Below are positions 25,012 through 62,198 of a stretch of DNA of 64,000 nucleotides, one piece after another. Numbering within the stretch: the stretch's first letter is position 1; every line of letters begins with the position of its first letter. Below the pieces are notes generated by a model. That model was not told where the DNA came from. It saw only the letters and a program-made list of their open reading frames with translations, and ran no database searches. The position numbers were made by a program, and so were the translations under genes. This stretch comes from Gallionella capsiferriformans ES-2 (GTDB taxonomy: Bacteria; Pseudomonadota; Gammaproteobacteria; Burkholderiales; Gallionellaceae), in NCBI RefSeq assembly GCF_000145255.1, contig NC_014394.1, positions 1,488,001 to 1,552,000 on the forward strand, given 5' to 3'.

Positions 25012-25033
25012 ATGCGCTATGGGAACGAATATC

Positions 25034-25567
25034 ATGACGACACGCTATACCCCCACCGCAATGGTGCTGCACTGGCTGATGGCGCTACTGCTGACGGGAA
25101 CGTTTGTGCTGGGGCTTTATATGAGCGACTTGAAATTATCGCCTACTAAGTTGCAGCTCTACAGTTACCATAAATGGATAGGCATCACGCTGCTGGCACT
25201 GGCGGTATTTCGTGTGCTCTGGCGGCTCACCCACAGGCCGCCTGCAATTGTCTTGCCGCGCTGGCAGCAACGCGCAAGTAGCAGCGTCCACGGTATGCTG
25301 TATGTGCTGTTCATCGCCATCCCGCTCACCGGCTGGCTGATGAGTTCGGCCAAGGGTTTTCAGACCGTGCTGTTCGGCGTTTTGCCGCTGCCGGATTTGG
25401 TCGGCAAAGATAAGTCGCTGGGGGTGCTGTTCACCTCGGTACACGAAAACCTCAATTATCTGCTGCTGGTGCTGGTACTGCTGCACGTGGCGGCCGCCTT
25501 AAAACATCAATTGATCGACCGCGACGGCCTCATGGCCCGCATGTTACCCGGAGGGATTGCAAAATGA
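25034..25567 (+). CDS. Cytochrome b561 family membrane protein
   Basis: 177 residues with four predicted membrane helices (about 11-32, 46-66, 84-108 and 137-158). Haem-ligand histidines are in AMVLHWLMALLL, YSYHKWIGITLL, SSSVHGMLYVLF and LVLLHVAAALKH, two per side. It moves electrons, probably between the quinone pool and a periplasmic partner. It overlaps the following yceI by 4 nt; a b561-yceI pair is common in proteobacteria (yceJ-yceI). An upstream in-frame ATG at 25019 could extend it by five residues, but family similarity starts at MTTRYTPTAM. Confidence 0.93.
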   Translation: MTTRYTPTAMVLHWLMALLLTGTFVLGLYMSDLKLSPTKLQLYSYHKWIGITLLALAVFRVLWRLTHRPPAIVLPRWQQRASSSVHGMLYVLFIAIPLTGWLMSSAKGFQTVLFGVLPLPDLVGKDKSLGVLFTSVHENLNYLLLVLVLLHVAAALKHQLIDRDGLMARMLPGGIAK

Positions 25568-26121
25568 AGCTCGCTAAATTTTCCGTAATCGGCCTGCTGC
25601 TCAGTGTCAGCACGGCACAGGCCGTCGAATACAATCAAGTGGTACCCGCCCAAAGTGCCCTGAGCTTTGGCTACCGGCAGATGGGCGTTGCTATGGAGGG
25701 GAAATTTACCAAGTTTTCCGCACAACTCGCGTTTGATCCGGCCAAATTGACGAGCGCCCGCGCCAGCATTGATGTGAATCTGGCCAGCATAGACACGGGT
25801 TCCACTGACGCGGATGAGGAAGTTGCCGGCAAAAAATGGTTCAATGCCAAAACGTATCCGCTGGCCAGTTTTGTCTCCAGCGGCGTCAAATCTATCGGTG
25901 GAAATCGCTATCAGGCCACGGGAAAACTCACCATTAAAGGTAAAACGCTGGATGTGACAGCGCCTCTCACCTTTGATGGTCGCGCCTTCGACGGCAGTTT
26001 CACCCTTAAACGCTTAGCCTATGGCATCGGTACCGACGAATGGGCCGATTTAGGCACCGTCGCCGACGAGATTCAGATCAAATTTCACTTAGTTGTTTTA
26101 GCCTCACCTGCAAAAAAGTAA
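25564..26121 (+). CDS. YceI family periplasmic protein (first copy)
   Basis: 185 residues with a Sec signal peptide (MKLAKFSVIGLLLSVSTAQA, cleavage after AQA). The mature part is a YceI lipocalin-like barrel (GYRQMGVAMEGKFTKFSAQL, ATGKLTIKGKTLDVTAPLTF). YceI proteins bind long isoprenoids such as polyprenyl quinones in the periplasm. Its ATG overlaps the b561 stop (ATGA), so the two proteins are made together and may handle a shared quinone-type ligand. A second YceI follows 33 nt later with a different N-terminal sequence, so the pair is not a recent tandem duplication. Confidence 0.94.
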   Translation: MKLAKFSVIGLLLSVSTAQAVEYNQVVPAQSALSFGYRQMGVAMEGKFTKFSAQLAFDPAKLTSARASIDVNLASIDTGSTDADEEVAGKKWFNAKTYPLASFVSSGVKSIGGNRYQATGKLTIKGKTLDVTAPLTFDGRAFDGSFTLKRLAYGIGTDEWADLGTVADEIQIKFHLVVLASPAKK

Positions 26122-26154
26122 GCCCAACTCATCCAACTTAAAAGGAAATACATC

Positions 26155-26721
26155 ATGAAAAAACTGATCGCATTGACCCTCGCAACTACTTTCGCCACAG
26201 CTGCCTACGCCGCACCTGAAACCTATGTGCTGGAGCAAAACCACACTAAGCCGCGCTTCGAATACAGTCACATGGGCTACTCGACCCAGCAAAGCCGCTT
26301 TGACACCGTGACCGGAAAAATCATCATCGATCGCGCCGCTCACACAGGTTCAGTCGATGTCACGATCGATGCCAAATCGGTCAATACCGGCTCGACACCG
26401 TTCAATGCCCACATTCAGGGTGAAGATTTTTTCAACACTGAAAAATATCCGACCATTACCTACCAGTCTGATAAGTTCAAGTTTGACGGCGACAAACTGG
26501 TCAGCATCGAGGGCAATCTGACCATCAAGGGCGTGACTAAACCTGTCACCCTGACGGTGACGGCGCTCAAGTGTATGCCCCACCCGATGATGAAAAAGGA
26601 TGCCTGCGGTGCGGATGCAACCGCGCACATCAAGCGCTCTGATTTCAACATGGGCAAATATGCCCCGTTGGTTGGTGATGAGGTCACACTGACAATTCCG
26701 GTCGAATCGATCAAACAGTAA
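26155..26721 (+). CDS. YceI family periplasmic protein (second copy)
   Basis: 188 residues with a signal peptide (MKKLIALTLATTFATAAYAA) and a complete YceI barrel beginning YVLEQNHTKPRFEYSHMGYS and ending TLTIPVESIKQ. Two cysteines (CMPHPMMKKDAC, about residues 141-152) could form a disulfide and are absent from the first copy. AAAGGAAA precedes the ATG. An intrinsic terminator at 26735-26764 follows directly, which suggests the pirin-b561-yceI-yceI transcript ends here. The ligand is unknown; a polyprenyl quinone is the family expectation. Confidence 0.94.
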   Translation: MKKLIALTLATTFATAAYAAPETYVLEQNHTKPRFEYSHMGYSTQQSRFDTVTGKIIIDRAAHTGSVDVTIDAKSVNTGSTPFNAHIQGEDFFNTEKYPTITYQSDKFKFDGDKLVSIEGNLTIKGVTKPVTLTVTALKCMPHPMMKKDACGADATAHIKRSDFNMGKYAPLVGDEVTLTIPVESIKQ

Positions 26722-26734
26722 TTTTTGCATCATC

Positions 26735-26764
26735 CCCTCCGCCTCGCGGAGGGTTAACTTTTTT
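26735..26764 (+). terminator. Intrinsic terminator after yceI pair
   Basis: Stem CCCTCCG and CGGAGGG with a 5-nt loop, followed by TTAACTTTTTT. It lies 14 nt after the yceI stop. The next gene starts at 26775, so some read-through is possible. Confidence 0.8.
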
Positions 26765-26774
26765 GGAGCAAACA

Positions 26775-27842
26775 ATGACAACCACCCTATTCACCCCGAT
26801 CACGCTGGGACCGCTGCAACTGCCCAATCGCATCGCGATGGCGCCGATGACGCGCTGCCGTGCCATCGGCTCGGTACCGAATGCGCTGATGGAAGCGTAT
26901 TACCGCAATCGTGCGGATGCCGGACTTCTCATTAGCGAAGGAATTTCACCCTCAGTCAACGGTTTGGGTTACGCGCGTCAACCCGGCCTGTTCAACGCTG
27001 AACAAATTTCAGGCTGGCAGCGCGTCAATCAGGGCGTACATCAGGCGGGCGGCCACATTTTCGTTCAGCTGATGCACACCGGTCGCGTCAGCCATCCGGC
27101 CAACATGCAGTCCGGCAGTAAAATACTCGCACCCTCAGCGCTCGCCGCCCCCGGTGAAATGTGGACCGATAGCAGCGGCATGCAGCCCTACCCTGTCCCG
27201 TCTGCCATGACGGAAGCTGAAATCGAACAGACGATTGCAGAGTATGTGCAGGGCGCAAAAAATGCGCGTGAAGCGGGCTTCGATGGCGTAGAAATTCATG
27301 CGGCCAACGGCTATATGATCGACCAGTTTTTAAATACGGCAACCAATCAGCGTACCGATAACTGGGGGGGCAGCATCGCAAACCGCATCCGTTTCGCCGT
27401 CGAAATCGCCAAAGGCACGGCAGCCGCCATTGGCGCGGATCGCGTCGGCATGCGCATCTCACCCTACGGCGTATTCAACGGCACAGCCCCCGATGCTGAG
27501 ATGGATGCGATGTATCTTGCGCTGATTGAAGAATTGAACCGAATCGGTCTGGTGTACATCCACATCGTCGATCACAGCGCGATGGGCGCGCCGGAAGTGA
27601 GTCCGTCTTTAAAAGCGGCGATACGCGCAAACTTTAAGGGACGCTATATCTTGTCTGGCGGCTACGATCTGGCGCGTGCGAACAGCGATCTTGATGCGGG
27701 ACGCGGCGATCTGGTGGCCTTCGGTCGTCCGTTCATCTCGAACCCGGATCTGGTTGGAAAACTGCGCAGCGGTGCTGAGCTGACCGCAGCTGATTTTTCC
27801 ACGTTCTACACACCGGGCGAAAAGGGCTATTCAGACTACTGA
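26775..27842 (+). CDS. Old Yellow Enzyme family alkene reductase (NemA-like)
   Basis: A 355-residue FMN and NAD(P)H-dependent enzyme that reduces activated C=C bonds and often nitro compounds and electrophiles. The barrel starts with LFTPITLGPLQLPNRIAMAP. The substrate-binding His/Asn pair is in VEIHAANGYMIDQFLN, followed by NWGGSIANRIRF, and the phosphate-binding end is LVAFGRPFISNP. ATG at 26775 is chosen because GGAG lies 6 nt upstream; a TTG four codons earlier would remove that site. It follows the YceI terminator and may be partly co-expressed with the pirin operon, although a separate promoter is equally likely. Confidence 0.94.
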   Translation: MTTTLFTPITLGPLQLPNRIAMAPMTRCRAIGSVPNALMEAYYRNRADAGLLISEGISPSVNGLGYARQPGLFNAEQISGWQRVNQGVHQAGGHIFVQLMHTGRVSHPANMQSGSKILAPSALAAPGEMWTDSSGMQPYPVPSAMTEAEIEQTIAEYVQGAKNAREAGFDGVEIHAANGYMIDQFLNTATNQRTDNWGGSIANRIRFAVEIAKGTAAAIGADRVGMRISPYGVFNGTAPDAEMDAMYLALIEELNRIGLVYIHIVDHSAMGAPEVSPSLKAAIRANFKGRYILSGGYDLARANSDLDAGRGDLVAFGRPFISNPDLVGKLRSGAELTAADFSTFYTPGEKGYSDY

Positions 27843-45144: not shown

Positions 45145-46155
45145 TTAGGATGCCGATGCTTCAGAATAACCGGCTAACGTTTTGCTGCGCCGCCAGAATG
45201 CCCACGTATCAAAGCGCGTAAGACTCAGCTGTTGCAGGCTGCCCCCCCCCACCAGATCGACTGTTAATTGCTCTATTTTCCCGCTGCGCAAGGCCTGCCA
45301 CAAAGGCTTTGCATATCCCGTCTCAAACGACTGCAACGCATCGCGCCACCCGGCCAGATCGCCGCGCTGTAACGCACGGCGCAACCCTGTCCAGACCAGC
45401 AGCTGCCTGTCCTCACTTGCCTGCCACTCGGACGGCCAAGCCGAATAAGGGATGTCCGCTGCAGATGCGAGCATTTCGAGCAACACCTCATCAGAGCTGA
45501 CATGATCATATTCGCCCTGCACAGGCGCTGATTGGGGGCCATTCCCCCAGAACCACACGCTGTTGACGGGGACATCGCCGCGTGCTTCCCGTACCGCGTT
45601 GAGCGGATTAGCAAACAACAGCATCTGAATCTCATTGAACAGTTGATGCCAGCGGCGCGCTTCAGTGCCTTCAGGCAGATTGCCGTGAATATTGCGCCCG
45701 GCAGCCTGTGACAGCGGCATCGTTTGAATATCAGGATGTTCGTTCAGACACACATACCAGCGATTGGGGTGAGGCGCAAAAAATGTCACGCCCTGCTCTG
45801 AAAAATGGGCGTTCAGACTGATGCAAAATTGCATCGCCTCGTCGGGACTGACAGCGACATCGGGCAGCAACACCACCTGCTCGCGCTGCAGTCGTACATG
45901 GACTGGATCCGCACGCAGCCAGACGCCCGCGGGCAAACCGTCGAATGCAGCAGAAAGCGATGCGATTCCAGAGGATACGGAAAACAAGCCGCAAACACAC
46001 GCGTCCAGTGATAAGCTATCTGCGCGCGGTTGACCCGTGGACACCCCGCGCGCCAGCAGCTTTTCCAGTGCTGGCAGTTGCAGTCCCGCACACACCTCGG
46101 CGGCAAACTCTTTAGGCAGGCATAAATCGGTAATAACCAGATGTACTTTTTTCAT
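45145..46155 (-). CDS. RpfE-type regulatory protein / phosphoglycerate mutase-like protein
   Basis: 336 residues, similar by recognition to the RpfE-like proteins usually found beside recJ in betaproteobacteria (PHPNRWYVCL, RRWHQLFNEIQMLLFANP and PVNSVWFWGNGP are the recurring words). Some members are annotated as 2,3-bisphosphoglycerate-independent phosphoglycerate mutase-like because of a weak alkaline-phosphatase fold (HLVITDLCLP at the N-terminus), but catalytic residues are not convincing. recJ is not the next gene here; an MscS channel follows. Function is unknown beyond the historical name. The ATG at 46155 is the first codon of family similarity. Confidence 0.75.
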   Translation of the reverse strand: MKKVHLVITDLCLPKEFAAEVCAGLQLPALEKLLARGVSTGQPRADSLSLDACVCGLFSVSSGIASLSAAFDGLPAGVWLRADPVHVRLQREQVVLLPDVAVSPDEAMQFCISLNAHFSEQGVTFFAPHPNRWYVCLNEHPDIQTMPLSQAAGRNIHGNLPEGTEARRWHQLFNEIQMLLFANPLNAVREARGDVPVNSVWFWGNGPQSAPVQGEYDHVSSDEVLLEMLASAADIPYSAWPSEWQASEDRQLLVWTGLRRALQRGDLAGWRDALQSFETGYAKPLWQALRSGKIEQLTVDLVGGGSLQQLSLTRFDTWAFWRRSKTLAGYSEASAS

Positions 46156-46637: not shown

Positions 46638-46890
46638 GGATTTTTGCGGGATGATTGAATATGCGTATCAGTGGCCAACCAAAACAATAGATTTATGGAT
46701 ATAACTTTACATCTACGATAAATTAATCAAGCACCTAGAGTTTTGGTTATGACACATAGTCATACGCTACTCACCTTGCCAAGCCCTGAAATTCAGTTCC
46801 CGAGACTGAGCTGCACTTTGAATTTACAGGTCAATATTCAATCTCGCCGGCGCGCCAATAGCGTGCAGTTCTTCAGCCTAGTCTGACGAT

Positions 46891-47067
46891 TTAATCCAAA
46901 AACTCGAACTCCGCCACAAGCATGTGGTGATCCGAGGCATTTGTCAGTTTCACGGCGTAGCGTACAAATGCTGGTGTCGACTGTAGAAAATGTGAGCGGG
47001 CACGTAGGGGCGTCTGCGCCACGTACTGGTTGATGAGATGCATTCTGGGATAATAACGAACATACAT
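46891..47067 (-). pseudogene. Short ORF resembling the C-terminus of an endonuclease/exonuclease/phosphatase protein
   Basis: A 58-codon minus-strand frame beginning MYVRYYPRMHLINQYVAQTP and ending NASDHHMLVAEFEFLD, then TAA. The end matches the closing strand of the EEP (DNase I-like) fold, where a conserved SDH is followed by a hydrophobic strand. The rest of such a gene is absent, as the phhB coding region begins at once upstream. It is most likely a remnant. Alternatively it is a tiny real gene, since GGGGA lies 8 nt before the ATG. Confidence 0.35.
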
Positions 47068-47096
47068 TTATCATTCCCCTGTCTTCACTGCAAAAT

Positions 47097-47435
47097 TCAA
47101 ATCTTGAAGAATGCGTCCACCTTGGCGGCGCAAATGAAATCGTTTTCTGACAAGCCATTGATGGCATGAGTGGAGTATTCAATCTGGCACCTGTTGTAAC
47201 TCACCTTCAGATCGGGATGATGATCTTCTCGATGGGATATCCAGGCCACCACATTAACGAAGGCCATGGTCTGGTAATAGTTTTTGAATTCGAAAGTTTT
47301 ACCGATCAGCTGGTTATATTGAACCCAGTCGTCGAGTTGCTTCATCAGCGTGATAATTTCATCCTGCGTTAGCGGAGGTGTACCGACCTCGCAGGGCTTG
47401 CATTGCTTGTGGGTTAGGTCGAAAACGTTGTCCAT
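47097..47435 (-). CDS. phhB: Pterin-4-alpha-carbinolamine dehydratase
   Basis: Recycles the 4a-carbinolamine pterin formed by phenylalanine hydroxylase. 112 residues from ATG at 47435, preceded by GAGGAC; a longer frame upstream has no family similarity. The PCD fold is visible as FEFKNYYQTMAFVNVVAWIS followed by the active-site EDHHPDLKVSYNRCQIEYST and GLSENDFICAAKVD. No phenylalanine hydroxylase gene is nearby, and many bacteria carry PCD without one. The N-terminal C-x-x-C (KQCKPCEVG) is found in several environmental homologues. Confidence 0.93.
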   Translation of the reverse strand: MDNVFDLTHKQCKPCEVGTPPLTQDEIITLMKQLDDWVQYNQLIGKTFEFKNYYQTMAFVNVVAWISHREDHHPDLKVSYNRCQIEYSTHAINGLSENDFICAAKVDAFFKI

Positions 47436-47805
47436 GATGTCCTCACTTAAACTAGTAAAGGTTGGTTCGAGATACATGTTGATTGCATTCCATCTATTTG
47501 TATTCGCTAACAAAAATTACTACAGCGGCTCAGATGGACCGTTAAAAATTCTATTCATCCGTTTCTGTTGAGCAATTAAAAGCAGCCACTGTTTTTTTGT
47601 TCATTGCCTCTTAAAGGCTACAGCGTTTTATGCTCTGATGATATAGGACAAATACCGATGGGTTTTTACTGATTTTACTTAATGCATATCGAGCAAAACA
47701 CCGATAGTTTAAAAACGGCCATCCCATCAAAATCACATCGCGATAATCGCTACAGGTAGCCGTGTCGCGCAAATATCTTTTCTCATAAGCTCAATGGAGG
47801 TTTAT

Positions 47806-48099
47806 ATGTTGCAAACGATTAAAATGCCTGTCGTTTCAGAATGCGCTATTGCCGAATGCGCTTACAACTCAAACAAGTCCTGCCATGCCATCGCTATAAC
47901 GATAGGCGACGGTAATCGCCCTATGTGCGACACCTTCTTTAAGTCGTCAAGACATGGCGAATTAAATAGCATAGCGGGGGTTGGGGCGTGCAAGGTTTTT
48001 ATATGTCGTCATAACAACAATCTTGAGTGTAGTATGGAGAGTATCCGGGTTGGCTCTGAGCAAGATCATGGGAAATGCATGACGTTTGTTGCGGCCTAG
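47806..48099 (+). CDS. DUF1540 cysteine-rich protein (two domains)
   Basis: A 97-residue cytoplasmic protein. Two Cys-rich units follow each other: residues about 9-48 (VSECAIAECAYNSNKSCHAI ending MCDTF) and about 55-95 (VGACKVFICRHNNNLECSM ending CMTF). The spacing of four cysteines per unit is that of DUF1540, a presumed zinc- or metal-binding domain of unknown role. ATG at 47806 is chosen because GGAGG lies 5 nt before it. The 290-bp upstream gap is free of other genes. It precedes the broken sodB and katG on the same strand. Confidence 0.85.
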   Translation: MLQTIKMPVVSECAIAECAYNSNKSCHAIAITIGDGNRPMCDTFFKSSRHGELNSIAGVGACKVFICRHNNNLECSMESIRVGSEQDHGKCMTFVAA

Positions 48100-48214
48100 C
48101 CTTCGAGCATCAGCGCACGGGCTGCCAATAGCCGCTTAACAAACAGGGGGCTGTTCTACTGTAGATATGGCCGCACTTCACGCCCCCTTTAGGTTTTTAC
48201 CGAGGAGAAAATAG

Positions 48215-48530
48215 ATGAAGCATACCCTGCCCCCGCTGCCTTATGCGATGGACGCGCTGCAACCCACATATCCAAGGAAATGTTCAAGTAGCACTACGGC
48301 AAGCATCATCACGTGACCAATCTCAATCATCTGATCATGCGAGCGTGCTGCACTGGACGACATTATCAGGAAATCTTCCGGCGGCATTTATAATAATTCC
48401 GCGCAAGTGTAGAGCCACACCTTTTCTGGAACTGCATGAAGCCGAACGGCTGCGGTGCTCCTTCCGGTGAACTGGCTGCTGCTATCAACAAGTAGTGGGG
48501 CCGCCACGATGAGTTCAAGAAGGTGAAGCC
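48215..48530 (+). pseudogene. sodB: Decayed superoxide dismutase (Fe/Mn SodB) gene
   Basis: The ATG at 48215 follows GAGGAG and reads MKHTLPPLPYAMDALQP, the SodB N-terminus. After a frameshift come HISKEMFK, a one-base extra, then HYGKHHHVTNLNHLI (the metal-ligand His segment). Further on are RKSSGGIYNNSAQV, a TAG where the family has Trp, SHTF, then after another shift WNCMKPNGCGAPSGELAAAI and DEFKK. All follow the SodB order, but at least three frameshifts and two stops break them, and the last third with the C-terminal metal ligands is missing. It is non-functional. It lies 110 bp before an intact katG. Confidence 0.85.
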
Positions 48531-48636
48531 GCGCGATGGATACAATTCATCGGCAGTGTAAAAAATATATTGTACAAATCGCTATTCACGCCCGATGCTG
48601 ACCGTGCACTTTACTGATAACCACGAGGAGTAATAA

Positions 48637-50811
<2,175 letters not shown>

Positions 50812-50853
50812 TCTTCTAAGATTAGGTCTTAATAAGTCCGTACCGTAAAGCCT

Positions 50854-50886
50854 CTACTTGCATCTGGTTTTCCCGGATGCAGGTAG
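50854..50886 (+). terminator. Hairpin after katG
   Basis: Arms CTACTTGCATC and GATGCAGGTAG (one mismatch-type pair) with extra pairing near the loop, 42 nt after the katG stop and before the convergent hsdR. No T-run follows. It is a probable transcription end between the convergent genes. Confidence 0.5.
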
Positions 50887-51003
50887 CGTCTGGGCGGCTC
50901 TTCACGTCTTACTTTCACCTGATTTTATGCAAGCAGCAACTCATGGTATAGCGATAGATATAGGTGACCTAAGCACTGCCACCAGATGAATGACACACGC
51001 CTC

Positions 51004-53898
51004 TTAAACGCTCCCGCCCATGCCTTCAACATACGTATGGATGAATTCCTGAATCTTGTCCCCGATACGCTCCAGAATGCTTTTCCTTTCCAGTATCTTC
51101 GGCTTGAAACTCAGCGACTCCACGATCTCCTGATCTCTGGGCAGGCGATTGGCAAACACATAGTTCTGTAGCAGCTTTTCAAATTGAGCAGGTTCGATCT
51201 GCTCGTCGCGACATAGCTGCACGAATGCGCTTTGTCTTTGCCGCATCCAGTAACTTTCAAACTCGGCAATCACATTGTCATCCGGTTTAAGTTTCGGCAG
51301 GTTGTCCTCGATGAACGCTTCGATCAGTTTGCGCTTGCTGCGCAGCTGCACCTCGCCTGCCAGCATGTCGAGAATCGCCTTCTGTCGCTTCCTGGCCTCC
51401 TCGGGCGGCAGATTTTTCAGGTTGACCAAGAGATTCAGAATATACGCCACATTGATTTCATCACGGTGAATCAGGCTCAATTCAAAATCCACCTCTTCCA
51501 GCACAGAGACCTTTTCAGGATCGGTTTGCTTCTTCACCTTGTCGTGGATGTCGAGATATTTGCTCTTGAAATCCTCAAATAACTGTTCTGCCATTGCCAG
51601 GTCAGTCTCGCTGAATTCGGCAAAGCTGGTGATAATGTTTTTCAGGCGCAGGAGGGCGCGGAATTTGGTGACGAATTCCAGCTCGGCTTTTTCATCAGGC
51701 AATGCATCTACACTGGCGACGGTCGGTGTCAGCGCTAGTAGTGCTTCGGTTGCCTCGTTGAACTGCGTCACGTAATCCTCATACGGCTCCAGCAGTACGG
51801 TTTCCTTGGCATCCTTGTTGGAGAAAAGCGCAATGGCTTCATCCGTGGCTTCCTTCAAATTGCGGAAGCAGATGATGTTTCCCTGCGATTTCTTGTCGTT
51901 GAGGATGCGATTGGTGCGCGAGAATGCTTGTACCAGCCCGTGAAACTTGAGATTTTTGTCCACGTACAGCGTATTCAGACGTGGGCTATCGAAGCCTGTC
52001 AGGAACATGTTCACGACCAGCAGAATATCCACCTGTCCGGCTCTTACGCGCTTGGCGATGTCCTGATAATAGTTGTAGTAGGACTGGCTATCGCGAGTGG
52101 AATACTTCGTGCCAAACATCCCGTTGTAGTCTTCGATGAACTCATCCAGTTTGTCGCGGCTGCGCTGGTTGATTTTTCCTTCCGGTATGGGATTCTCTTC
52201 AGGGATCAGTCCACTGGTCAGGCCGTTGGCATTCGGGTCTTCTTCGTTGGCTGCATAGCTGAAGATGGTGGCGATCTTGAGCGGTTTGGCAGCGCCGACC
52301 TGCTTCTGTTTGAACAGGTCGTAATACTTGATGAGTGTTTCAACGCTGCTCACACAGAACATCGCGGTGAAGTCCGGTGACTTGGTTTTCTGGGGATGAT
52401 AGGCCAGGATGTAATCGGTAATCTTGCCAAGCCGTATCGGACTATCCAGCAATTCCTTGGTGTCTATGGCTTCAACGTCAATATCTATCTCGTTGGCGTT
52501 GTCCACACGTTTGTATTTTCCCACGTACTCGACGGCAAAGCGCAGCACGTTCTCATCCTTGATGGCATCCACGATGACATATTTGTGCAGGCACTCACCG
52601 AATAAATCCTTGGTGGTTTTCTGCTGTCCGATACTGCCGGTCGCGTTATCGGCAAAGATCGGTGTACCGGTAAAACCGAACATTTGCGCGTTTCGGAAAA
52701 ACTGTTTGATGTTCTGGTGGGTGTCGCCAAACTGGCTGCGATGGCATTCGTCGAAGATGAACACGAATTTCTTGTCTTGCAGATGGGTGACGCGGCTCAG
52801 GTAATGCTCTTTGACGATGGCGTTGTTGAGCTTCTGGATGGTGGTGAGGATCAGCTTGGTGCTGTCATCATTCAGTTGCTTGACCAGCGTATGCGTATTG
52901 GTGGTTTCGTCCACGCTGCCTTTGCAGAAGCCGTTAAACTCCTTGGCAGTCTGATAATCGAGGTCTTTGCGATCCACACAGAACACGACCTTATGCACCT
53001 TGGGCATACGCTGGATAATCTGGGCAGCCTTGAATGAGGTGAGCGTTTTACCGGAACCTGTCGTATGCCAAATATAGGCATTGTGCGAGCTTTGAGCGTC
53101 GCTCAAATGCCTGCGAGAGGCGAATTCGTTGCTGTTCTTCACCCGATCCACCAGGGCTTCCGTGGCATAGAACTGATACGGACGCAGTACCTTGATGACC
53201 TGCTCCTCCGTCATCACCATGTAGTGCGTCATCATCTTGGCGATGTGGCAAGGCTTCAGGAATTCGGCGCTGAACTCAAGCAGGTCGGACAGGCGTTTGT
53301 TTTCCTTATCCGTCCAATAGAAGGTTTGCTTGAATGACTGCTGTTTGTTGTTGGAGAAATACTTGGTATTTACGCCGTTGCTGATGATGAACAGTTGCAC
53401 GTACTGGAACAAGCCAAAGCCTGCATCGTAGGAATCATGCTGGTAGCGGTTGATCTGGTGGAATGCGACCTTGAGTTCTGCGCCTCTGCGTTTCAGCTCG
53501 ATCTGCACCAGCGGCAGGCCATTGATGATGAGCGTGACGTCATAGCGGTTCTTGCGTTTGCCCTGCATCGAGACCTGATTCGTGACCTGAAACTCATTCA
53601 TGCACCAGTCATCGCAATTCAGGAAACTGATATAGGCGGTCTCGTCGTTGTCGCGCTTGAGGGCAAACTTATCACGCAGAATTTTGGCACGTTCAAATAC
53701 ACTGCCAGTGTTCAGGTGATTGAGGATGCGGTCAAACTCGGTCGGCGTGAACTGGATGTCCTTGTTGTGGATCTGCAACTGCTGCTTGAGGTTCGCCAGC
53801 ATCGCGGTTTCATCGTCCAGCGTCACGCTGTCGTACTCCATGCCCTTGAGTTGAGCGATCAGCGCGGCTTCTAAAGCGTATTCGGATTGCGTACTCAA
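51004..53898 (-). CDS. hsdR: Type I restriction enzyme, R (restriction/translocase) subunit
   Basis: 964 residues. The N-terminal PD-(D/E)xK nuclease has Asp120, Glu134 and Lys136 (RYDVTLIINGLPL followed by QIELKRRG). The superfamily 2 motor has Walker A HTTGSGKTLTSFK at about 278-290, the DECH box FIFDECHRSQFG at about 380-390, and later motifs GFTGTPIF and QAFSRTNRIL. A C-terminal helical region for binding the methylase completes it. It is the last gene of the hsdM-rhuM-hsdS-hsdR operon, 22 nt after hsdS. All motifs are intact, so restriction activity is expected. Confidence 0.96.
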   Translation of the reverse strand: MSTQSEYALEAALIAQLKGMEYDSVTLDDETAMLANLKQQLQIHNKDIQFTPTEFDRILNHLNTGSVFERAKILRDKFALKRDNDETAYISFLNCDDWCMNEFQVTNQVSMQGKRKNRYDVTLIINGLPLVQIELKRRGAELKVAFHQINRYQHDSYDAGFGLFQYVQLFIISNGVNTKYFSNNKQQSFKQTFYWTDKENKRLSDLLEFSAEFLKPCHIAKMMTHYMVMTEEQVIKVLRPYQFYATEALVDRVKNSNEFASRRHLSDAQSSHNAYIWHTTGSGKTLTSFKAAQIIQRMPKVHKVVFCVDRKDLDYQTAKEFNGFCKGSVDETTNTHTLVKQLNDDSTKLILTTIQKLNNAIVKEHYLSRVTHLQDKKFVFIFDECHRSQFGDTHQNIKQFFRNAQMFGFTGTPIFADNATGSIGQQKTTKDLFGECLHKYVIVDAIKDENVLRFAVEYVGKYKRVDNANEIDIDVEAIDTKELLDSPIRLGKITDYILAYHPQKTKSPDFTAMFCVSSVETLIKYYDLFKQKQVGAAKPLKIATIFSYAANEEDPNANGLTSGLIPEENPIPEGKINQRSRDKLDEFIEDYNGMFGTKYSTRDSQSYYNYYQDIAKRVRAGQVDILLVVNMFLTGFDSPRLNTLYVDKNLKFHGLVQAFSRTNRILNDKKSQGNIICFRNLKEATDEAIALFSNKDAKETVLLEPYEDYVTQFNEATEALLALTPTVASVDALPDEKAELEFVTKFRALLRLKNIITSFAEFSETDLAMAEQLFEDFKSKYLDIHDKVKKQTDPEKVSVLEEVDFELSLIHRDEINVAYILNLLVNLKNLPPEEARKRQKAILDMLAGEVQLRSKRKLIEAFIEDNLPKLKPDDNVIAEFESYWMRQRQSAFVQLCRDEQIEPAQFEKLLQNYVFANRLPRDQEIVESLSFKPKILERKSILERIGDKIQEFIHTYVEGMGGSV

Positions 53899-53920
53899 GG
53901 TGATCTGCCTTTCTGTTGAA

Positions 53921-55153
53921 CTACACGAACATCTGCTGTAATAAGCCTTGCTTGTACTGCTTCACGGCTTCAAGCTGGGTTTTAGCGGTAGTAATCTTCT
54001 CGTCAATAGCGGTCAGGAAATTGGCGATTTTAGTTTGCTCTTTCAAACATGGGTAAGGAATAGGCAATCCTAAAAAGCTCTCGTTTGTGATATTCATACG
54101 ATCATGACGAGCGCCAGAATTTGAAACGCTCTTCATGTAGTCATGCCAATGGGTTGTGTGAAAGTATTGCTCTATAAAATTCAAATTTCCTGCTTTGAAT
54201 CTGAATACGTTATAGAGAGGTGACATAACACCAACAGCCAAGTTATTCCTCTTGATTGGGCCGACCAAAGCATTAGCAGAAATTCTTGGGTTGTACACAA
54301 AATCATCAATCTCAACGATGTAATAGCCACCCAAGTTGTTTTGATTAGCAATGTCTCTTTCAAAATAGTCTGATTGACTGACAATCCCTTGCGTAGCTGA
54401 ATTGGTCAAAACATTGTTGATTGCCGAGTCTTTATTCTTCTTATTTACCTTGGCTGCGATTTTCTCAAGCTCAACCACATCCCACTCTGGAAAATCACAC
54501 CCATCGTCATCCTTAAATCTCAGCTCCTGGCTGAAAATCTGCTGCATCACGCCTTTTTTGTATTGGGTAAGCAGGTCGTGCTTGCGGGTGAGCTGGGTAA
54601 GCTTTTGATCGACAGCGGTGAGGAAATTGGCGATTTTGGTTTGCTCTGCAAGCGACGGAAACATAACCATTACAGCGGCGATGTCTGCCTGACCAATTGT
54701 AGTCATCGTGGCAGTTTTACCTCTCGCTACCAACTGTTTTCTTGCCTTCGATGTGCGTAATAGGTAGTTAGCGAATACCGAATTTAGCACGTCCTTCCTT
54801 GGACGCATCCTTATCAGATGCCCATCAAAGGTTATATCTTGAGAGTGTCCGAGATAGATGTTTGAGAATGCGATTCCCTCTTTAACTAACGACGAACGGG
54901 TAAAAAAGATTTCACCATGCTCAACCTTGTTTTTCTTGAATTCAGCATCACTCAGTTCGACCAGAGACAATCTATTTTCATCAATGGTTGTCTCGATGTA
55001 CATATCCAGCACATTGATTAGCTTGTAGCCTCGCCCAGTTTTCTTTGGGTCATTAAACACGCCATTGGTAAAGCCTGACTCACTTAGATTTATTAGACTT
55101 TCTTCGCTCCATGCAGCTTGTCCCTTATCAAACCTCAAAGCTGGCGCACTCAT
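53921..55153 (-). CDS. hsdS: Type I restriction enzyme, S (specificity) subunit
   Basis: 410 residues that set the recognition sequence of the complex. Two target-recognition domains (about 5-145 and 215-360) are each followed by a conserved helical repeat: EQTKIANFLTAVDQKLTQLT, then YKKGVMQQIF, and EQTKIANFLTAIDEKITTAK, then YKQGLLQQMF. Its start overlaps the rhuM stop by 4 nt (ATGA). The first target domain is more AT-rich than hsdM and hsdR, as often seen where S subunits are reshuffled. The target sequence cannot be deduced. Confidence 0.95.
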   Translation of the reverse strand: MSAPALRFDKGQAAWSEESLINLSESGFTNGVFNDPKKTGRGYKLINVLDMYIETTIDENRLSLVELSDAEFKKNKVEHGEIFFTRSSLVKEGIAFSNIYLGHSQDITFDGHLIRMRPRKDVLNSVFANYLLRTSKARKQLVARGKTATMTTIGQADIAAVMVMFPSLAEQTKIANFLTAVDQKLTQLTRKHDLLTQYKKGVMQQIFSQELRFKDDDGCDFPEWDVVELEKIAAKVNKKNKDSAINNVLTNSATQGIVSQSDYFERDIANQNNLGGYYIVEIDDFVYNPRISANALVGPIKRNNLAVGVMSPLYNVFRFKAGNLNFIEQYFHTTHWHDYMKSVSNSGARHDRMNITNESFLGLPIPYPCLKEQTKIANFLTAIDEKITTAKTQLEAVKQYKQGLLQQMFV

Positions 55154-56169
55154 TTACCACCTCGCTTCTTCACGACTTCAGCCACTGCATTCAACTCTTC
55201 CAGTTCTTGAGCGTCAGCGGCAAGGGCTTGTTCGGTTTTGCGTCGTGCATCGAATTTCGCGTACTGGCTATTCACCTGTTTTTCCATTTGCGCGTGGCTG
55301 ATGCGTCCTGCACTGGATAGCACAGGTTTGTCGTTAAAGGTGAGCAGTTTATCTACGTTATCGCGCCAGTAGGGCAAGGTAAGGTCTTTACGCTCTTTCA
55401 CACGCAGCTCTGCTGTTTCCAGAAAGATGACGGTCAGCCGGTTCAGACTGTCCACCTCGTCAGCATTCAGATAGTTCTTGGCAACGGTGATGTCGCCCTT
55501 GCGCACTACGCTCCCCTTGAATGATTGCAGGTTCATATTGGGCGCGCTGGCATCGGCGCGCTGCACGATGATCTCGGCGGCAGTGTGTTGGGTAACGGCG
55601 TACAGCAGTTTGTTTTGCGTTTCGGCAAAAAACATCTGCGTGGCTTTGTCGCTGGCATCGTAATCACTGGATAAGGCGAGCAGGTCACGCACCTTTTGGT
55701 AGAAGCGCAGTTCGGAGGTGCGGATCTCGCGGATGCGTTCGAGCAGCTCATCAAAGTAGTCGGCTCTGCCATCTGGATTCTTGAGCCGTTCGTCATCCAT
55801 CACAAAACCTTTAATCAGGTATTGCTTGAGATGGGCATTCGCCCATTTTCTGAATTCAGTGCCGCGTGGACTGCGCACTCTAAAACCGATTGCCAGGATC
55901 ATGTCCAGCGCATAAAAGGTGACGCGGTAATCCTTGCCATCGGCGGCAGTTGTCAAGTAATCCTTGATAACTGAATCTGACTGTAGTTCCTTTTCTTTCA
56001 ATATGTTATTGATGTGAAGGCTAACATTTTGCTTAGAGGTGGAAAAAAGTTCTGCCAGCTGGTTCTGGTTCATCCATATATTGCCATCGCGTGCATACAG
56101 CGAGACGGCCGCTTGACCGTCAGCGGTGTGGTAAATGATGAGGTTTTGTTGATTGGCTTGGCTAGGCAT
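55150..56169 (-). CDS. rhuM: RhuM family protein within type I restriction operon
   Basis: A 339-residue protein of the RhuM/'virulence protein' family, named from a Salmonella pathogenicity-island gene and very frequent in restriction-modification and toxin-like loci. The N-terminal wHTH-like part contains IWMNQNQLAELFSTSKQNVS, followed by the signature FYALDMILAIGFRVRSPRGT and FRKWANAHLKQYLIKGF. The C-terminal half includes a Fic/Doc-like fold segment suggestion (LTVIFLETAELRVKE), which is uncertain. The ATG at 56169 is 4 nt after the hsdM stop. It overlaps hsdS, so it is embedded in the operon. Function is unknown; the position suggests modulation of the restriction system. Confidence 0.88.
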   Translation of the reverse strand: MPSQANQQNLIIYHTADGQAAVSLYARDGNIWMNQNQLAELFSTSKQNVSLHINNILKEKELQSDSVIKDYLTTAADGKDYRVTFYALDMILAIGFRVRSPRGTEFRKWANAHLKQYLIKGFVMDDERLKNPDGRADYFDELLERIREIRTSELRFYQKVRDLLALSSDYDASDKATQMFFAETQNKLLYAVTQHTAAEIIVQRADASAPNMNLQSFKGSVVRKGDITVAKNYLNADEVDSLNRLTVIFLETAELRVKERKDLTLPYWRDNVDKLLTFNDKPVLSSAGRISHAQMEKQVNSQYAKFDARRKTEQALAADAQELEELNAVAEVVKKRGGK

Positions 56170-56173
56170 CGGA

Positions 56174-57769
56174 TTAAACCTGAGCAAAAGGCGGTGCAAT
56201 GCCTAATTCTTTGCAGAACGCTGCAATGGTGGCATCGGTCGTCAGGCTGGCTTTGTCTAGTTCGATCAATTGGGCAGAGATAACTGCCAGATCAATCGCT
56301 TCTTCTGCCTCGAAGGTGTCCACATAACGCGGAATGTTCAGGTTGTAGTCGTTGGCCTTGATGCTCTCGATACTCGCCACATGACTATACTTCTCTTCGT
56401 TGCTCCGCGCCTTGTAAGTATCAACGATTTTTTGGATATGCTCAGGACGCATCACATTGGTCGTTTTGACCTTGTCAAAGTGCTGGCTGGCATCAATGAA
56501 CAGAATGTTGTCAGGATTCTTGCGGCATTTCTTGAATACCAGCACGCAGGTCGGAATGGATGTGCCGTAGAAGATATTGGCAGGCAGGCCAATCACCGCA
56601 TCGAGACAGTTCAACTGCTCAATCAGGTATTGGCGGATATGCCCTTCAGCAGCGCCACGAAACAGCACGCCATGGGGCAACACCACCGCCATCGTGCCTT
56701 CTTCGGCCAGTTGATAGACCATGTGCTGCACAAAGGCCATATCGGCTTTGCTGGCAGGCGCGAGTTTGCCATATACCGAAAAGCGGTCATCGCTCATGTG
56801 CAACTGGCTGGCGCTCCACTGGGCGGAAAACGGCGGATTAGCGACGATGGCATCGAAGCGCAACTCACGATGTTGAGGGCGCTCCAGCGTGTCTTCCTGC
56901 TTGATATCGAAATCAGCGTAATGAACATCATGCAGAATCATGTTCATCCGCGCCAAGTTGTAGGTGGTGCGGTTCAGCTCTTGGCCGTAAATTTTATCGA
57001 CCTGCTTGGCCTCGCGTTTGACGCGCAGCAACAGCGATCCGCTGCCACAGGTCGGGTCGTACACACTCTTGAGCGTTTGCTTTTGTGCTGTAACCAGCTT
57101 GGCAAGCAAGGTTGAAACAGGCTGAGGGGTGTAGAACTCCCCCGCCTTTTTACCTGCGCCACTGGCAAACTCACCGATCAGGTATTCGTAGGCATCGCCC
57201 AGCACGTCGGCAGTTGAATCCGACAGATTGAAGTCGATCTTGTCCAGATGGGTCAGCACCTTCGCGACCAGCGCATTCTTCTCCTTCTCGCTGTTACCCA
57301 GCTTAGATGATGTCAAATCCAAGTCTTCAAACAGGTTCACGAAGTCGTCGGCGCTCTCCGTACCCAAGGTGCTTTGCTCGATGTTCTTCAGTATCCGGGT
57401 CAGGTCAGCGAGAATGAAATTGTGACTGTCGCCCAGCTTGTGTTCATCTTCCTGATTGCTGCCCTTCATGGCGATGGCATGGAACAGCTCGGATGGCTTC
57501 AGGAAATACCCAAGTTCACCCAGAGCAGCTTCTTCCAGCGCGGCGATATAGGCACGGCCTTCTTCGGTGGATTCCTTGAGCGCAGCGAAGTGCAGATTTT
57601 CCTGCGCCAGCTCGGCATCGGCAAAGCGTTGGATTTTCTCGGACAGGTATTTGTAGAAGATGAAGCCCAGAATGTAATCCCTGAATTCATCTGCCCCCAT
57701 CTTGCCGCGCAGGGTATTGGCGATATTCCATAGCTGTTGCTGTAACTGACGGCGCTGTTCTTCTGACAT
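56174..57769 (-). CDS. hsdM: Type I restriction enzyme, M (methyltransferase) subunit
   Basis: N6-adenine methyltransferase that protects the host sites and forms the core with HsdS. 531 residues from MSEEQRRQLQQQLWNIANTL; an extension to 57835 gives no family similarity. The N-terminal helical domain includes FRDYILGFIFYKYLSEKIQ. SAM motif I is YDPTCGSGSLLLRVK, and the catalytic motif IV is IVANPPFSAQW. VLPHGVLFRGAAEGHIRQYL and GLPANIFYGTSIPTCVLVF follow. It is the first gene of the operon, with a promoter-like sequence about 150 nt upstream. Confidence 0.96.
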   Translation of the reverse strand: MSEEQRRQLQQQLWNIANTLRGKMGADEFRDYILGFIFYKYLSEKIQRFADAELAQENLHFAALKESTEEGRAYIAALEEAALGELGYFLKPSELFHAIAMKGSNQEDEHKLGDSHNFILADLTRILKNIEQSTLGTESADDFVNLFEDLDLTSSKLGNSEKEKNALVAKVLTHLDKIDFNLSDSTADVLGDAYEYLIGEFASGAGKKAGEFYTPQPVSTLLAKLVTAQKQTLKSVYDPTCGSGSLLLRVKREAKQVDKIYGQELNRTTYNLARMNMILHDVHYADFDIKQEDTLERPQHRELRFDAIVANPPFSAQWSASQLHMSDDRFSVYGKLAPASKADMAFVQHMVYQLAEEGTMAVVLPHGVLFRGAAEGHIRQYLIEQLNCLDAVIGLPANIFYGTSIPTCVLVFKKCRKNPDNILFIDASQHFDKVKTTNVMRPEHIQKIVDTYKARSNEEKYSHVASIESIKANDYNLNIPRYVDTFEAEEAIDLAVISAQLIELDKASLTTDATIAAFCKELGIAPPFAQV

Positions 57770-57915
57770 GGCATATAGGATGGTTTGTGAGTGCGGCATG
57801 ATAAAGCGAAACACGCACAAAAACACGACAGTCATCCAATAACTTCAGAATGACCCCGCCAGCATCCGACAGGGCAAGCAATTCCATCGCAGTGAGATAT
57901 TTGATTTAGGTATAA

Positions 57916-57944
57916 ATTAGACAATTTTGCAAAAATTTGCACAA
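57916..57944 (-). promoter_or_regulatory. Candidate sigma-70 promoter of the hsd operon
   Basis: On the minus strand TTGTGC and TCTAAT are separated by 17 nt, directly after the tRNA-His terminator and about 145 nt before hsdM. The match is moderate, and the surroundings are AT-rich. Confidence 0.4.
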
Positions 57945-57979
57945 GAAAAAAGCCGCTAACTCATTGAATTAGCGGCTTT
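57945..57979 (-). terminator. Intrinsic terminator of the tRNA-His remnant
   Basis: Perfect 11-bp stem AAAGCCGCTAA and TTAGCGGCTTT with a 9-nt loop, followed on the minus strand by six T. It begins 5 nt after the CCA end of the tRNA-His fragment, the normal place for a tRNA gene's terminator. Confidence 0.9.
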
Positions 57980-57983
57980 AATT

Positions 57984-58031
57984 TGGGGTGGCTGATGGGG
58001 CTCGAACCCACGACAACAGGAATCACAATCC
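57984..58031 (-). other. tRNA-His 3' fragment (attachment-site remnant)
   Basis: On the minus strand the sequence runs from GGATTGTGATTCC (anticodon GTG at 58026-58024) through GTTGTCGTGGGTTCGAGCCC (T-arm) to CAGCCACCCCA, with the encoded CCA and the C73 discriminator specific to tRNA-His. The 5' half (acceptor 5' strand, D-arm and 5' anticodon stem) is missing, and similarity stops within the anticodon stem. This is the typical product of integration at the 3' end of a tRNA gene. By the usual geometry the inserted DNA lies on its 5' side, at higher coordinates. Confidence 0.85.
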
Positions 58032-58324
58032 AAAATTCAAACAAACCTAGCGCGTTGTTTTATAAGAATTTATTATATAATAATTGTCTAATAAATCCAT
58101 GAACCAAGGTTAATAAAGCCCATTTAAATACTCAAGTCGACAATCGGTATTAGACATCAAATCAGCCGACTGACTCAAAGATACACTGAAAAAATATCCG
58201 TCTTAGCTATGCGCCACATCGACGAATTACAGCCCATCAAACCAGCTGCTTAAATCAAATCAAGTACGTCCTAACGGTAACAAATCAACCAATTCAATTG
58301 AGGCGATCAACATCTCCTGACGGA

Positions 58325-58781
58325 TAGGAATTGCGGTCGAGGCCGATGGAAGTCACCCACTGCTCAACAATTATGGCATATTGCCGAGTCGAAATGTGTG
58401 GCGAGTCATATATGCGGCTTGGGAACAAAAACTGTTCTGATTTAAGCTGCGCCTGGGCAATCCATGCGGTGACCGCATCGCGTTTTTGTTCGGATATTTT
58501 AAACTACACAGGCCGATGCGTTTTCGCTGCATGACGATAGCGCGTTGTAAAACCTGCCCGCCTTGTGAAATGTCACGCACTTGCAACTAAACCAAATCAC
58601 AGCCGCGCAATTTACTGTCAATGGCCAGATTGAATAGAGCAAGCTCCCGAACCTGATGCGCCAACTGAAGCCGGATGCGAATTGCCCATATCATCTTCAG
58701 CTTCAGCGACATCTTCTGACCAACCTGCTTACCTTTGTTCCACTGCACGCGGTGGGAGTTGATGTGGATATCGGTGTTCAG
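58325..58781 (-). pseudogene. Decayed tyrosine recombinase (integrase)
   Basis: The minus strand reads VQWNKGKQVGQK, then AIRIRLQLAHQVRELALFNL and IDSKLRGCDLV, a TAG, LQVRDISQGGQVLQRAIVMQ, and after a further TAG FKISEQKRDAVTAWIAQAQL, EQFLFPSRIYDSPHISTRQY and VTSIGLD. This is the core of the short site-specific integrase family found with many proteobacterial islands. AAGGAG is followed 6 nt later by CTG at 58781 where an ATG would be expected. The C-terminal catalytic HxxR...Tyr part is gone. Two internal stops, a lost start codon and the truncation make it inactive. It lies 290 bp from the tRNA-His fragment. Confidence 0.8.
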
Positions 58782-59761: not shown

Positions 59762-61251
59762 TTATTCACCTCACCTTTTGATAATCAATAGCCTAAGTAT
59801 CAAATCGGTACAACCAAAGTTTTTTTCGCCGATCAGTCTAATCAGCAGCGATATCCGCATCGCCACGGGATGAAATTGTAGTCATCACTAAGAGTTCGTT
59901 TGGCATAAGCCTGGCTTGTACGTAAGTTACTCGGGTAGGTATGGCACAGACCACATTTCTGCCAAATCTGCACAACATGATAAACATCATCACTAAAACC
60001 TTATGCCGCTACGAACGGCCTTCCCAAAGGGTTAATTCAACAACCTTTTACAACACACGCCGGGTCACTCTTGGTGCATCTAGCTACCACCACTAAACAC
60101 AATCGCATAAAATCACGACCCCCTTTTTTCCCCAATCCCGATACCGCATCCTCACCAGCTCTGCTGGCTCCGCTAATGATATTCGAGCACAATCTGGCAC
60201 TTTTGAAGTGACAGAGGGGTGCATGTGAAGCTATGAAACGTGAAGCATGAAACAACTGCAATACAACAAACTACTTAGTCCTAATGAACATCCATGTAAC
60301 TTCATCCTCCAGATTTCAATACAAATTTCCCACTCTACGTCTGTTTGTCCTGACCATAGATCAGACAGAACGACGAACAGCAATACAGCGCTGACCAACA
60401 TGCCACCAACCCAACTGCTAAAAAGCCCATCGGGCTTCGTGCATGTAGGTTCTGGATGTAGTGCGCCCGCATCGAGGGTACTTATTGCTTTACTTTCTTT
60501 TGATTTATTACAGATTGAATGTCCTGCCTAGACAAAGGCAGATCAAGGGTTCGCTGGACGTTGTCCGCTACTAACTTTAGTTGTGATATCCATAAATCCC
60601 GTAGGAATTCAGGACGGATTTGTAGCGAGAAGCTACATGAGAATTGGTGACTAACCAATGTGAAACGTCGAGATTCGTACACTTATCCTAAACCTAAATA
60701 GGGCAACAGTACGCCGTCGCAGCCAATTTACCGTTGGCCAGTCGTACTCCACACTTAAGTGAAAGTGCGCGAATTAAATCATGAAAAAACTTGAGGTGTC
60801 AAATTTTCAAGTACCTGTCTCTGCTATATCACTCTTGTTTTTCATCAACGAATCCTTTTTCGCGCAATATCTCTCAATCACTCTCTATTTACTGAAAAGA
60901 TGACTTTCAAATAAAAATTCTCTTTAAAGCGCCTGAAGGCCACCACAAAATTACAAACGGACTAGAACATTTTTTCTCTAACCCGTTGTTTTTTGAAGGA
61001 ACGAGCAGATTACCCCTTGGATGTCGAAATAGCATTCAATTTGTAACATGTCGATTTAATTAGTTATACGTTGCGGTCTTCCGTTACAACCATGCACTAC
61101 ATCGCACAACGACGCATAACCAAATCCGGCAAAAGTCCGGCAAGTGATTAGTGACATGAGCTAAATTCTTTGTAACGTTTTCTATTGTCACCTTCTTCAG
61201 ATTTGCTATTATGGTATGAATTATTCCTACCATAAGCTCAAAGGAACACCA
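59762..61251. other. Gene-poor stretch with decayed coding traces
   Basis: I see no convincing gene here. Weak traces are a minus-strand GTG frame of 66 codons at 60482-60682 (ends LDLPLSRQDIQSVINQKK) with AGGA close to its start, and a minus-strand frame at about 59836-59985 without a start codon that is rich in Trp and Cys (IWQKCGLCHTYPSNL ... IPWRCGYRC). Composition is more AT-rich than in the housekeeping part. It probably holds debris of former island genes. Confidence 0.4.
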
Positions 61252-61539
61252 ATGGCTACCGCCGAAAAAATCAGTATTGCCTTGCCACCTGAAATGGTTC
61301 ATATCGTCCGTGGTGCCGTTGCTACCGGCGAATATGCATCAAGCAGCGAAGTCATTCGTGATGCGCTACGCGACTGGACATACAAACGCAACTTGCGCCA
61401 GCAAGGCGTTACCGAATTGCGTCGTGTCTGGCAAGAAGCCGTAAATGACAAAACTCCAGGCATTTCTCCGGACGACGTGCTAGATCGCCTTGAATGCAAG
61501 TATCAGGCTATCGCCGAGAGTACAAGTATCGAAAAATGA
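61252..61539 (+). CDS. parD: ParD-family antitoxin
   Basis: 95 residues from ATG 61252, with AAGGA 7 nt upstream. The N-terminal ribbon-helix-helix is EKISIALPPEMVHIVRGAVA followed by GEYASSSEVIRDALRDW, the hallmark of ParD/CopG-type antitoxins. The C-terminal part (about 55-95) should wrap the toxin. An in-frame ATG 12 codons earlier has no ribosome site. It overlaps parE by 4 nt. It would repress its own promoter in the AT-rich DNA upstream. Confidence 0.93.
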   Translation: MATAEKISIALPPEMVHIVRGAVATGEYASSSEVIRDALRDWTYKRNLRQQGVTELRRVWQEAVNDKTPGISPDDVLDRLECKYQAIAESTSIEK

Positions 61540-61829
61540 TGAAACTGGAACTATCACGCTATATTGAAGGTGATCTGGATAACATCTCATACTATATTGC
61601 CCAGGATAATCCACGTCGAGCCGTTACATTCATTCAGGACATTCGTGCGAAATTTTTCGACATCCAGCGTAACCCGCTAATCTATCAGCTTCGTCCCGAC
61701 ATTGGCGAGGAAGCACGTATGGCAACCGTTGGAAACTATGCCATTCTCTTCCGTCTCATGGGAGAGGTCATCAGGATTGAACGCATAGTTTACGGTGGTC
61801 GTGATTTACCAAACATTTTCGATCTATAA
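61536..61829 (+). CDS. parE: ParE-family toxin
   Basis: 97 residues from ATG 61536, overlapping the parD stop as ATGA. Family words are ELSRYIEGDLDNISYYIAQD, NPRRAVTFIQDIRAKFFDIQ, then ATVGNYAILFRLMGEVIRIE and IVYGGRDLPNIF at the C-terminus. ParE toxins typically poison DNA gyrase, though RelE-like action occurs in the superfamily. The pair is intact and is the second toxin-antitoxin module of the presumed island. Confidence 0.93.
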   Translation: MMKLELSRYIEGDLDNISYYIAQDNPRRAVTFIQDIRAKFFDIQRNPLIYQLRPDIGEEARMATVGNYAILFRLMGEVIRIERIVYGGRDLPNIFDL

Positions 61830-62198
61830 GAATCATCTGCAGCCAGCTCGCGATTAGTGGCTGAAAACTGTTCGGCCAATTTAATCATCATTCCTTGAAT
61901 ATCTGCTATATTTAGTACAGCAGATACTCTTCCCGAAGTGGCGTGAGGTGCAGTTCCAGAGACTAACCAGACCATCAAGGTCAAACAACTGATTGGCCGC
62001 TTTACTGCTGACAGCAGGCCGTCAACCTAATGCGAATTTGTGAAATTGAATGACTCTAGTTCGGCCTTTGCAGCCATTTGGGTATACCGCCACCAACGGC
62101 TGCAACGTGTCTGTCAGCGGTCATTGTCCCCAATGGCAGCTTCGTCGGACAGGTTACAGCCGGACTAGACCCATAGCTGCGTCTCGCCAGTATTTCAG
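61830..62198. other. Non-coding stretch between parE and the b561 fragment
   Basis: Nothing recognisable as a gene. A minus-strand frame at 61790-61984 overlaps parE and has no ribosome site. ATATCTGCTATATTTAG (61899-61915) and CAGCAGATA (61919-61927) form a partial inverted repeat. Confidence 0.35.

Follow-up and report, generated by a model that had tools for sequence, protein, structure and literature searches.

The window analysed here is a stretch of 64,000 nucleotides corresponding to positions 1488001-1552000 of the Gallionella capsiferriformans ES-2 genome, which is a single contig of 3,162,471 bases. Near its right end lies a displaced 3' half of a tRNA-His gene with a terminator (T1) beside it, and this pair recurs outside the window at the borders of two islands, A and B. 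The features, including those of a stretch that we call element C and a comparison with a relative (G061) described below, are as follows.

46729..46740, minus strand: surviving arm of another terminator, T0, placed by its sequence and by the end of the alignment with G061
46741..57942, no strand: element C, probably what remains of a third element of A type; G061 lacks it at this site
48640..50811, plus strand, in C: catalase-peroxidase-like gene with an open frame of 723 aa, presumably katG
51004..53898, minus strand, in C: hsdR, type I restriction subunit (PADLOC REase_I, E=0)
53921..55153, minus strand, in C: hsdS, type I specificity subunit (PADLOC Specificity_I, 7.3e-109)
56174..57835, minus strand, in C: hsdM, type I methyltransferase subunit (PADLOC MTase_I, 7e-164)
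57916..57924, minus strand: probable arm-site TTGTCTAAT at a distance of 60 nt to the half, the spacing also seen at the integrase end of A
57943..58031, no strand: 89-bp direct repeat (half plus T1), delimited by invariant alignment columns; two more copies have their ends at genome 1649250 and 1677882
57949..57979, minus strand: terminator T1, identical at all three copies
57984..58031, minus strand: displaced 3' half of tRNA-His (nt 29 to CCA), an att copy between C and A, equal to the intact gene at 48/48 nt (0 mismatches)
58084..58092, plus strand: probable arm-site TTGTCTAAT at the left end of A, from a motif count
58148..58156, minus strand: probable arm-site TGTCTAATA at the left end of A, from a motif count
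58303..58760, minus strand: decayed small tyrosine recombinase, from a tblastn alignment with stops and a frameshift; broken in G061 too

Further features, mostly to the right of the window, are given in genome coordinates.

1546032-1649161, no strand: island A (103 kb), beginning at window 58032, recognised from the second and third att copies and from its left 3 kb (dead recombinase included), 91.4% identical to the G061 island
1648047-1649120: intA, tyrosine integrase, open frame about 80 nt from the middle copy (PF00589 above cut-off)
1649251-1677793, no strand: island B (28.5 kb), bounded by att copies
1649313-1650488: intB, tyrosine integrase, open frame about 60 nt from the middle copy (PF00589 above cut-off)

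A whole-genome DNA search with the half gave three good matches, the other 13 rows being short or weak and 3 of these 13 representing the hairpin on the opposite strand. Half and terminator stand together, always in direct orientation, in the window, at genome 1649135-1649256 and at the intact tRNA-His (genome 1677835-1677910), which ARAGORN recognised on its locus and which is the one tRNA-His that DNA searches found in the genome. The alignment is invariant over 89 bp across all three copies, and this identical repeat rules out a chance match or a stand-alone tRNA fragment; the second-best match to the 48-mer within the window has 20 mismatches (at 28185). Neither ARAGORN nor Rfam called a tRNA in the window, as expected where there is half a gene only. 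The earlier note had predicted an island extending rightward from 58032 with an intact tRNA-His of identical 3' half at its far end; further att copies were indeed found in that direction, and the intact gene lies 131.8 kb to the right of the window half. Its description of the fragment as running exactly from the anticodon loop to CCA was nearly correct, in that C73 and the CCA end are present but the start is at nt 29, 3 nt before the loop.

Since a third copy stands between the window half and the intact gene, the interval holds two islands in tandem. This middle copy is flanked on both sides by intact integrase genes, intA and intB, whose products have no mutual match (blastp, 1e-3). The G+C content is 0.495 in A, 0.492 in B and 0.514 in C, compared with 0.534 and 0.526 in the flanks.

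Island B carries a type I BREX set at genome 1651741-1666045 in which BrxA, BrxB, BrxC, PglX, PglZ and BrxL all match PADLOC models. It thus resembles known type I BREX islands, although the best NCBIfam match of PglX, the BREX-1 model, falls below the curated cut-off, and otherwise B is distinguished by its carriage at tRNA-His. Between BrxC and PglX lie genes of 107 aa and 429 aa, the latter HipA-like by eye and without a PADLOC match. Integrative and mobilizable elements (IMEs) are elements with integration and mobilisation genes and no full conjugation apparatus. B has an integrase, a RepB-type primase, an AAA_25 ATPase and a TraD/TraG-like coupling-protein match, and may be an element of this kind.

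Searches covering part of the genes on the islands found in island A a Dsr1 match and TIR-like proteins (PADLOC-type defence searches), ABC-transporter and HlyD-like genes, and a weak NACHT antiphage match below its curated cut-off. This island also contains 12 attC-like sites beside small ORFs on the minus strand (genome 1627703-1636904; L049:3703-12904). The attC model was built from 6 of these and found the 6 others, at E 1.7e-12 to 3.7e-4; a scan of 320,000 bases gave nothing else at E up to 1. No integron-integrase was seen beside the sites among the recombinases searched, so that they are perhaps a cassette array without its integrase. Two small tyrosine recombinases of island A (204 aa, genome 1637728-1638342; 217 aa, genome 1609766-1610419) match the catalytic Pfam domain only, and their mutual match is weak (29% over 48 aa).

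The first of these small recombinases also clarifies the nature of the pseudogene in the window, which the earlier note had described as a dead integrase beside the fragment. A decayed tyrosine recombinase is real: its alignment to the intact 204-aa protein falls into two pieces covering residues 4-156 at 62-69% identity, nothing aligns past residue 156, and the last quarter is without a counterpart here or in G061. However, it belongs to another recombinase type and is matched by neither intA nor intB (tblastn, 1e-3), and it is therefore unlikely to be island A's own integrase and probably not island A's enzyme. Two in-frame stops occupy identical places here and in G061, which has one extra stop of its own, and the frameshift is found here only. 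The recombinase was probably dead before the lineages of ES-2 and G061 separated.

A relative for comparison at this site came from a search of genome contigs with intA, which returned three loci, the best (94% identity) in Gallionellales GWA2_54_124 (G061; the same coordinates were carried as G073 in the family scan). In G061, the intA-like integrase directly adjoins an intact tRNA-His with terminator T1, and the displaced half lies 78 kb further. The integrase end of island A is 93.0% identical to its counterpart, and the flanking chromosome 87-94%. Because the end identities are much like that of the flanking chromosome, A's ends were probably inherited along with it, to judge from the alignments. 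Of island A as a whole, 13,041 of 103,103 bases have a match in the G061 island; in this comparison the bulk of its cargo was probably not inherited together with the chromosome, and related elements may thus have entered the site independently in both genomes. For B, none of 28,526 bases aligns (1e-10, G061 island only), and as the integrase there stands directly at tRNA-His, the site in G061 can serve as a natural 'before' picture for B.

The comparison also alters the left side of the locus. The half in G061 is followed by T0 and then by the counterpart of window 46740 leftwards, at 87.3% over 512 bp and then at 87-90% for about 20 kb, and none of the 11,200 bases of window 46741-57940 aligns to the G061 island (1e-10). 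Consequently, the 11.2 kb to the left of the fragment are also extra, and 57984 is not the island/chromosome boundary that the earlier note had made it. Its proposed comparison with a relative lacking the island could be made in part: B and C are absent at the site in G061, whereas for A no empty site was identified in 99 family genomes.

We consider it very likely that the fragment is an att copy produced by repeated site-specific integration of mobile elements into tRNA-His, first A and then B, with C as an element remnant. Each element would carry a tRNA 3' half plus the terminator beside it, and its tyrosine integrase would cross over in or near the anticodon arm, such that the element restores the tRNA gene and the former 3' half is pushed away. 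Island A, whose ends are common to G061, would have entered first, and B would later have entered the restored tRNA gene beside A's integrase. Element C, on the chromosome side, would be of A type and would no longer have an integrase or an outer half.

A short motif is consistent with this kinship of A and C. The 9-mer TTGTCTAAT was chosen by eye from the flanks before counting; in 212 kb, all four of its occurrences are beside att copies, within about 100 nt (two at the intA end, one at A's left end and one left of the window half), and in 100 kb of G061, all three are at its two att copies. Island B has no TTGTCTAAT site. Such a distribution suggests that TTGTCTAAT represents integrase arm sites. 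Element C, which also holds a pterin-4a-carbinolamine dehydratase match, gave no convincing integrase remnant (best E 0.11), and no second tRNA half was found to its left near 46741 when the whole window was searched at up to 20 mismatches (the known copy and 28185 only). Since it has neither an integrase remnant nor an outer half, C would be a remnant, and its status as an element rests on T1 and one arm motif; from these, it is probably what is left of a third, A-type element. Its loss from G061 and its gain here are equally possible.

The terminators bear on how the left side is to be read. T1 is a hairpin with a T-run 4 nt past CCA, and its RNA fold of -19.7 kcal/mol (z -6.1) was equalled by 0 of 200 shuffles. 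T0, beside the displaced half of G061, is a different hairpin (-21.0 kcal/mol), and its remaining arm in the window no longer folds as a terminator (z 0.64). By eye, a T0-like terminator follows the half in G029 and, more weakly, in G011, and the intact gene in G028 and G023. In the usual scheme, the terminator at the intact gene is that of the last element, and the one at the outermost half is the chromosome's. The terminator that the earlier note saw beside the fragment is real but, being the same as at the other two copies and differing from T0 of G061, T1 beside the window half is probably element-borne.

Three other explanations could be considered. First, 57984 could be the true boundary between chromosome and island, with T1 chromosomal and katG and the restriction genes old and lost by G061. 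The G+C content of C, intermediate between core and islands, would fit this, as would katG-like DNA elsewhere in three of six relatives searched (G001, G010 and G029) and restriction-gene pieces on another G061 contig. However, the G061 half carries T0 and joins the counterpart of window 46740, where an arm of T0 remains, T0-like terminators recur in the relatives just named, and the end of C carries the A-type arm motif at equal spacing. We regard this explanation as unlikely.

Second, T1 at the window copy could have arrived by gene conversion from another copy, C then being a separate insertion and not an element. Identity past CCA extends for 41 and 44 nt within the ES-2 genome, against an unbroken 0-6 nt in 16/16 comparisons of intact and displaced pairs in 15 relatives, and conversion would account for T1 being identical in all three copies. 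Some likeness past CCA does remain in the relatives, in a shared A/T-rich start and the hairpin: over 45 nt, 7/16 comparisons exceed the 95% shuffle level, and G061 exceeds all 300 shuffles. However, the sequence past T1 at the window copy is still a variant of its own (nearer to the flank of A in G061 at CTTGTG), and the arm motif is retained, so that conversion would have had to stop and restart, which makes this quite unlikely. Finally, a single composite island with the middle copy duplicated inside one element, although compatible with three repeats identical over 89 bp, is very improbable given that A's integrase in G061 is directly at the tRNA without B DNA in its island and that an integrase, a primase and a coupling-protein-like gene belong to B itself.

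Serial integration, the explanation we prefer, still leaves one observation unaccounted for in its simple form, namely that B, without TTGTCTAAT and with an unrelated integrase, has the same T1. This terminator is the one beside the intact gene in G061, whose integrase is 94% identical to intA, in G029 (32%) and here at the end of B (a third integrase), and it is therefore common to elements with unrelated integrases. It is not universal, as a Gallionella contig (L104) with a 77% identical intA has another sequence there. Given that T1 is found on A, B and the G029 element despite their unrelated integrases, the tRNA 3' half and its terminator could, within this family, form a portable attachment module that is exchanged among elements, probably via recombination in tandem arrays, with tRNA-His gaining a new terminator at each integration. 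We offer this tentatively and hold it to be somewhat doubtful, but the shared terminator module is the point of wider interest in this locus, and the comparison of terminators suggests a simple way to tell the element-borne side of a tRNA-island joint.

The same site is also used elsewhere in the family. Among 99 family genomes at least 90% complete, our own included, 88 gave a tRNA-His match and 21 a truncated copy; excluding two whose copy ended at a contig end (G066 and G002), 19 of the 99 have a displaced tRNA-His half. In all 19, the half is cut off somewhere from nt 23 to nt 32 of the tRNA, which places the break on the 5' side of the anticodon arm or close to it. An integrase-like frame lies within 150 bp of a copy in 17 of the 19 (weakly in G090, 5.5e-6), and none was found near the copy in G089 and G101, with a profile (E 1e-4 or better) built from the 7 of 20 own-genome integrase domains that passed a check for stops and length and that may miss some. 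There are two recurrent layouts: 10 genomes, counting A of ES-2, have the integrase on the terminator side of a copy, and 8, counting B of ES-2, have it 5' of the displaced half. No fully empty site, with both flanks and no insertion, was identified in the 99 genomes: where the core gene (window 45145-46155) and tRNA-His were both seen on one contig, they are about 11.5 kb (G011) or more apart. The tRNA-His half is thus a known kind of system at a busy site.

Genomic islands in tRNA genes are catalogued in Islander, whose published table has 3919 islands alongside 125 tandems with at least two members and 4 with at least three (PMC4383910). As described there, such islands share with the array studied here the regenerated tRNA gene, the direct displaced 3' fragment, the tyrosine integrase and the site in the anticodon region, and the present array differs in consisting of two, probably three, members. 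Matched against the Islander definition, ES-2 has on a single replicon both an intact tRNA-His and, in direct orientation, a displaced 3' fragment, as well as a tyrosine integrase inside A (intA) and inside B (intB) but not C, and absence of B and C at the site in G061. A and B each have the fragment and integrase of their own that the tandem rule asks of every member; C has neither. In the literature searched, we saw no report of this array, which may yet be included in Islander's own island lists. The mechanism is ordinary and well documented in general, and this is an unusually rich instance, in which a single tRNA gene has collected two well-supported elements and probably a third.

The ES-2 genome paper gives one chromosome of 3.16 Mb with 53% G+C. 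It states that large blocks of horizontally acquired DNA are not evident in the genome of either of its two strains, reports no pseudogenes for ES-2 and counts 21 integrases there, and it sees more plasticity in ES-2 (PMC3770913). The present region contradicts the statements on large acquired blocks and pseudogenes. Starting within the window, about 143 kb (genome 1534741-1677793) are probably mobile DNA in stacked form, and they carry BREX, restriction-modification, Dsr1-like and TIR-like genes as well as a decayed recombinase.

Several smaller likenesses were also observed. A gene cluster of the window at 24970-27053 has a diverged second copy in island A (genome 1625491-1627632; 67% over 2160 bp). 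On another G061 contig (G061:C6:19081-20530), three short segments that match the window restriction-modification genes at 83-90% are placed next to each other, as if after internal deletions. Window 61114-61963, which contains a parDE-like toxin-antitoxin pair, is 98% identical to G061 as against 91% for the neighbouring 3 kb, and a recent exchange is possible; G061 has a second copy of part of this stretch (95%).
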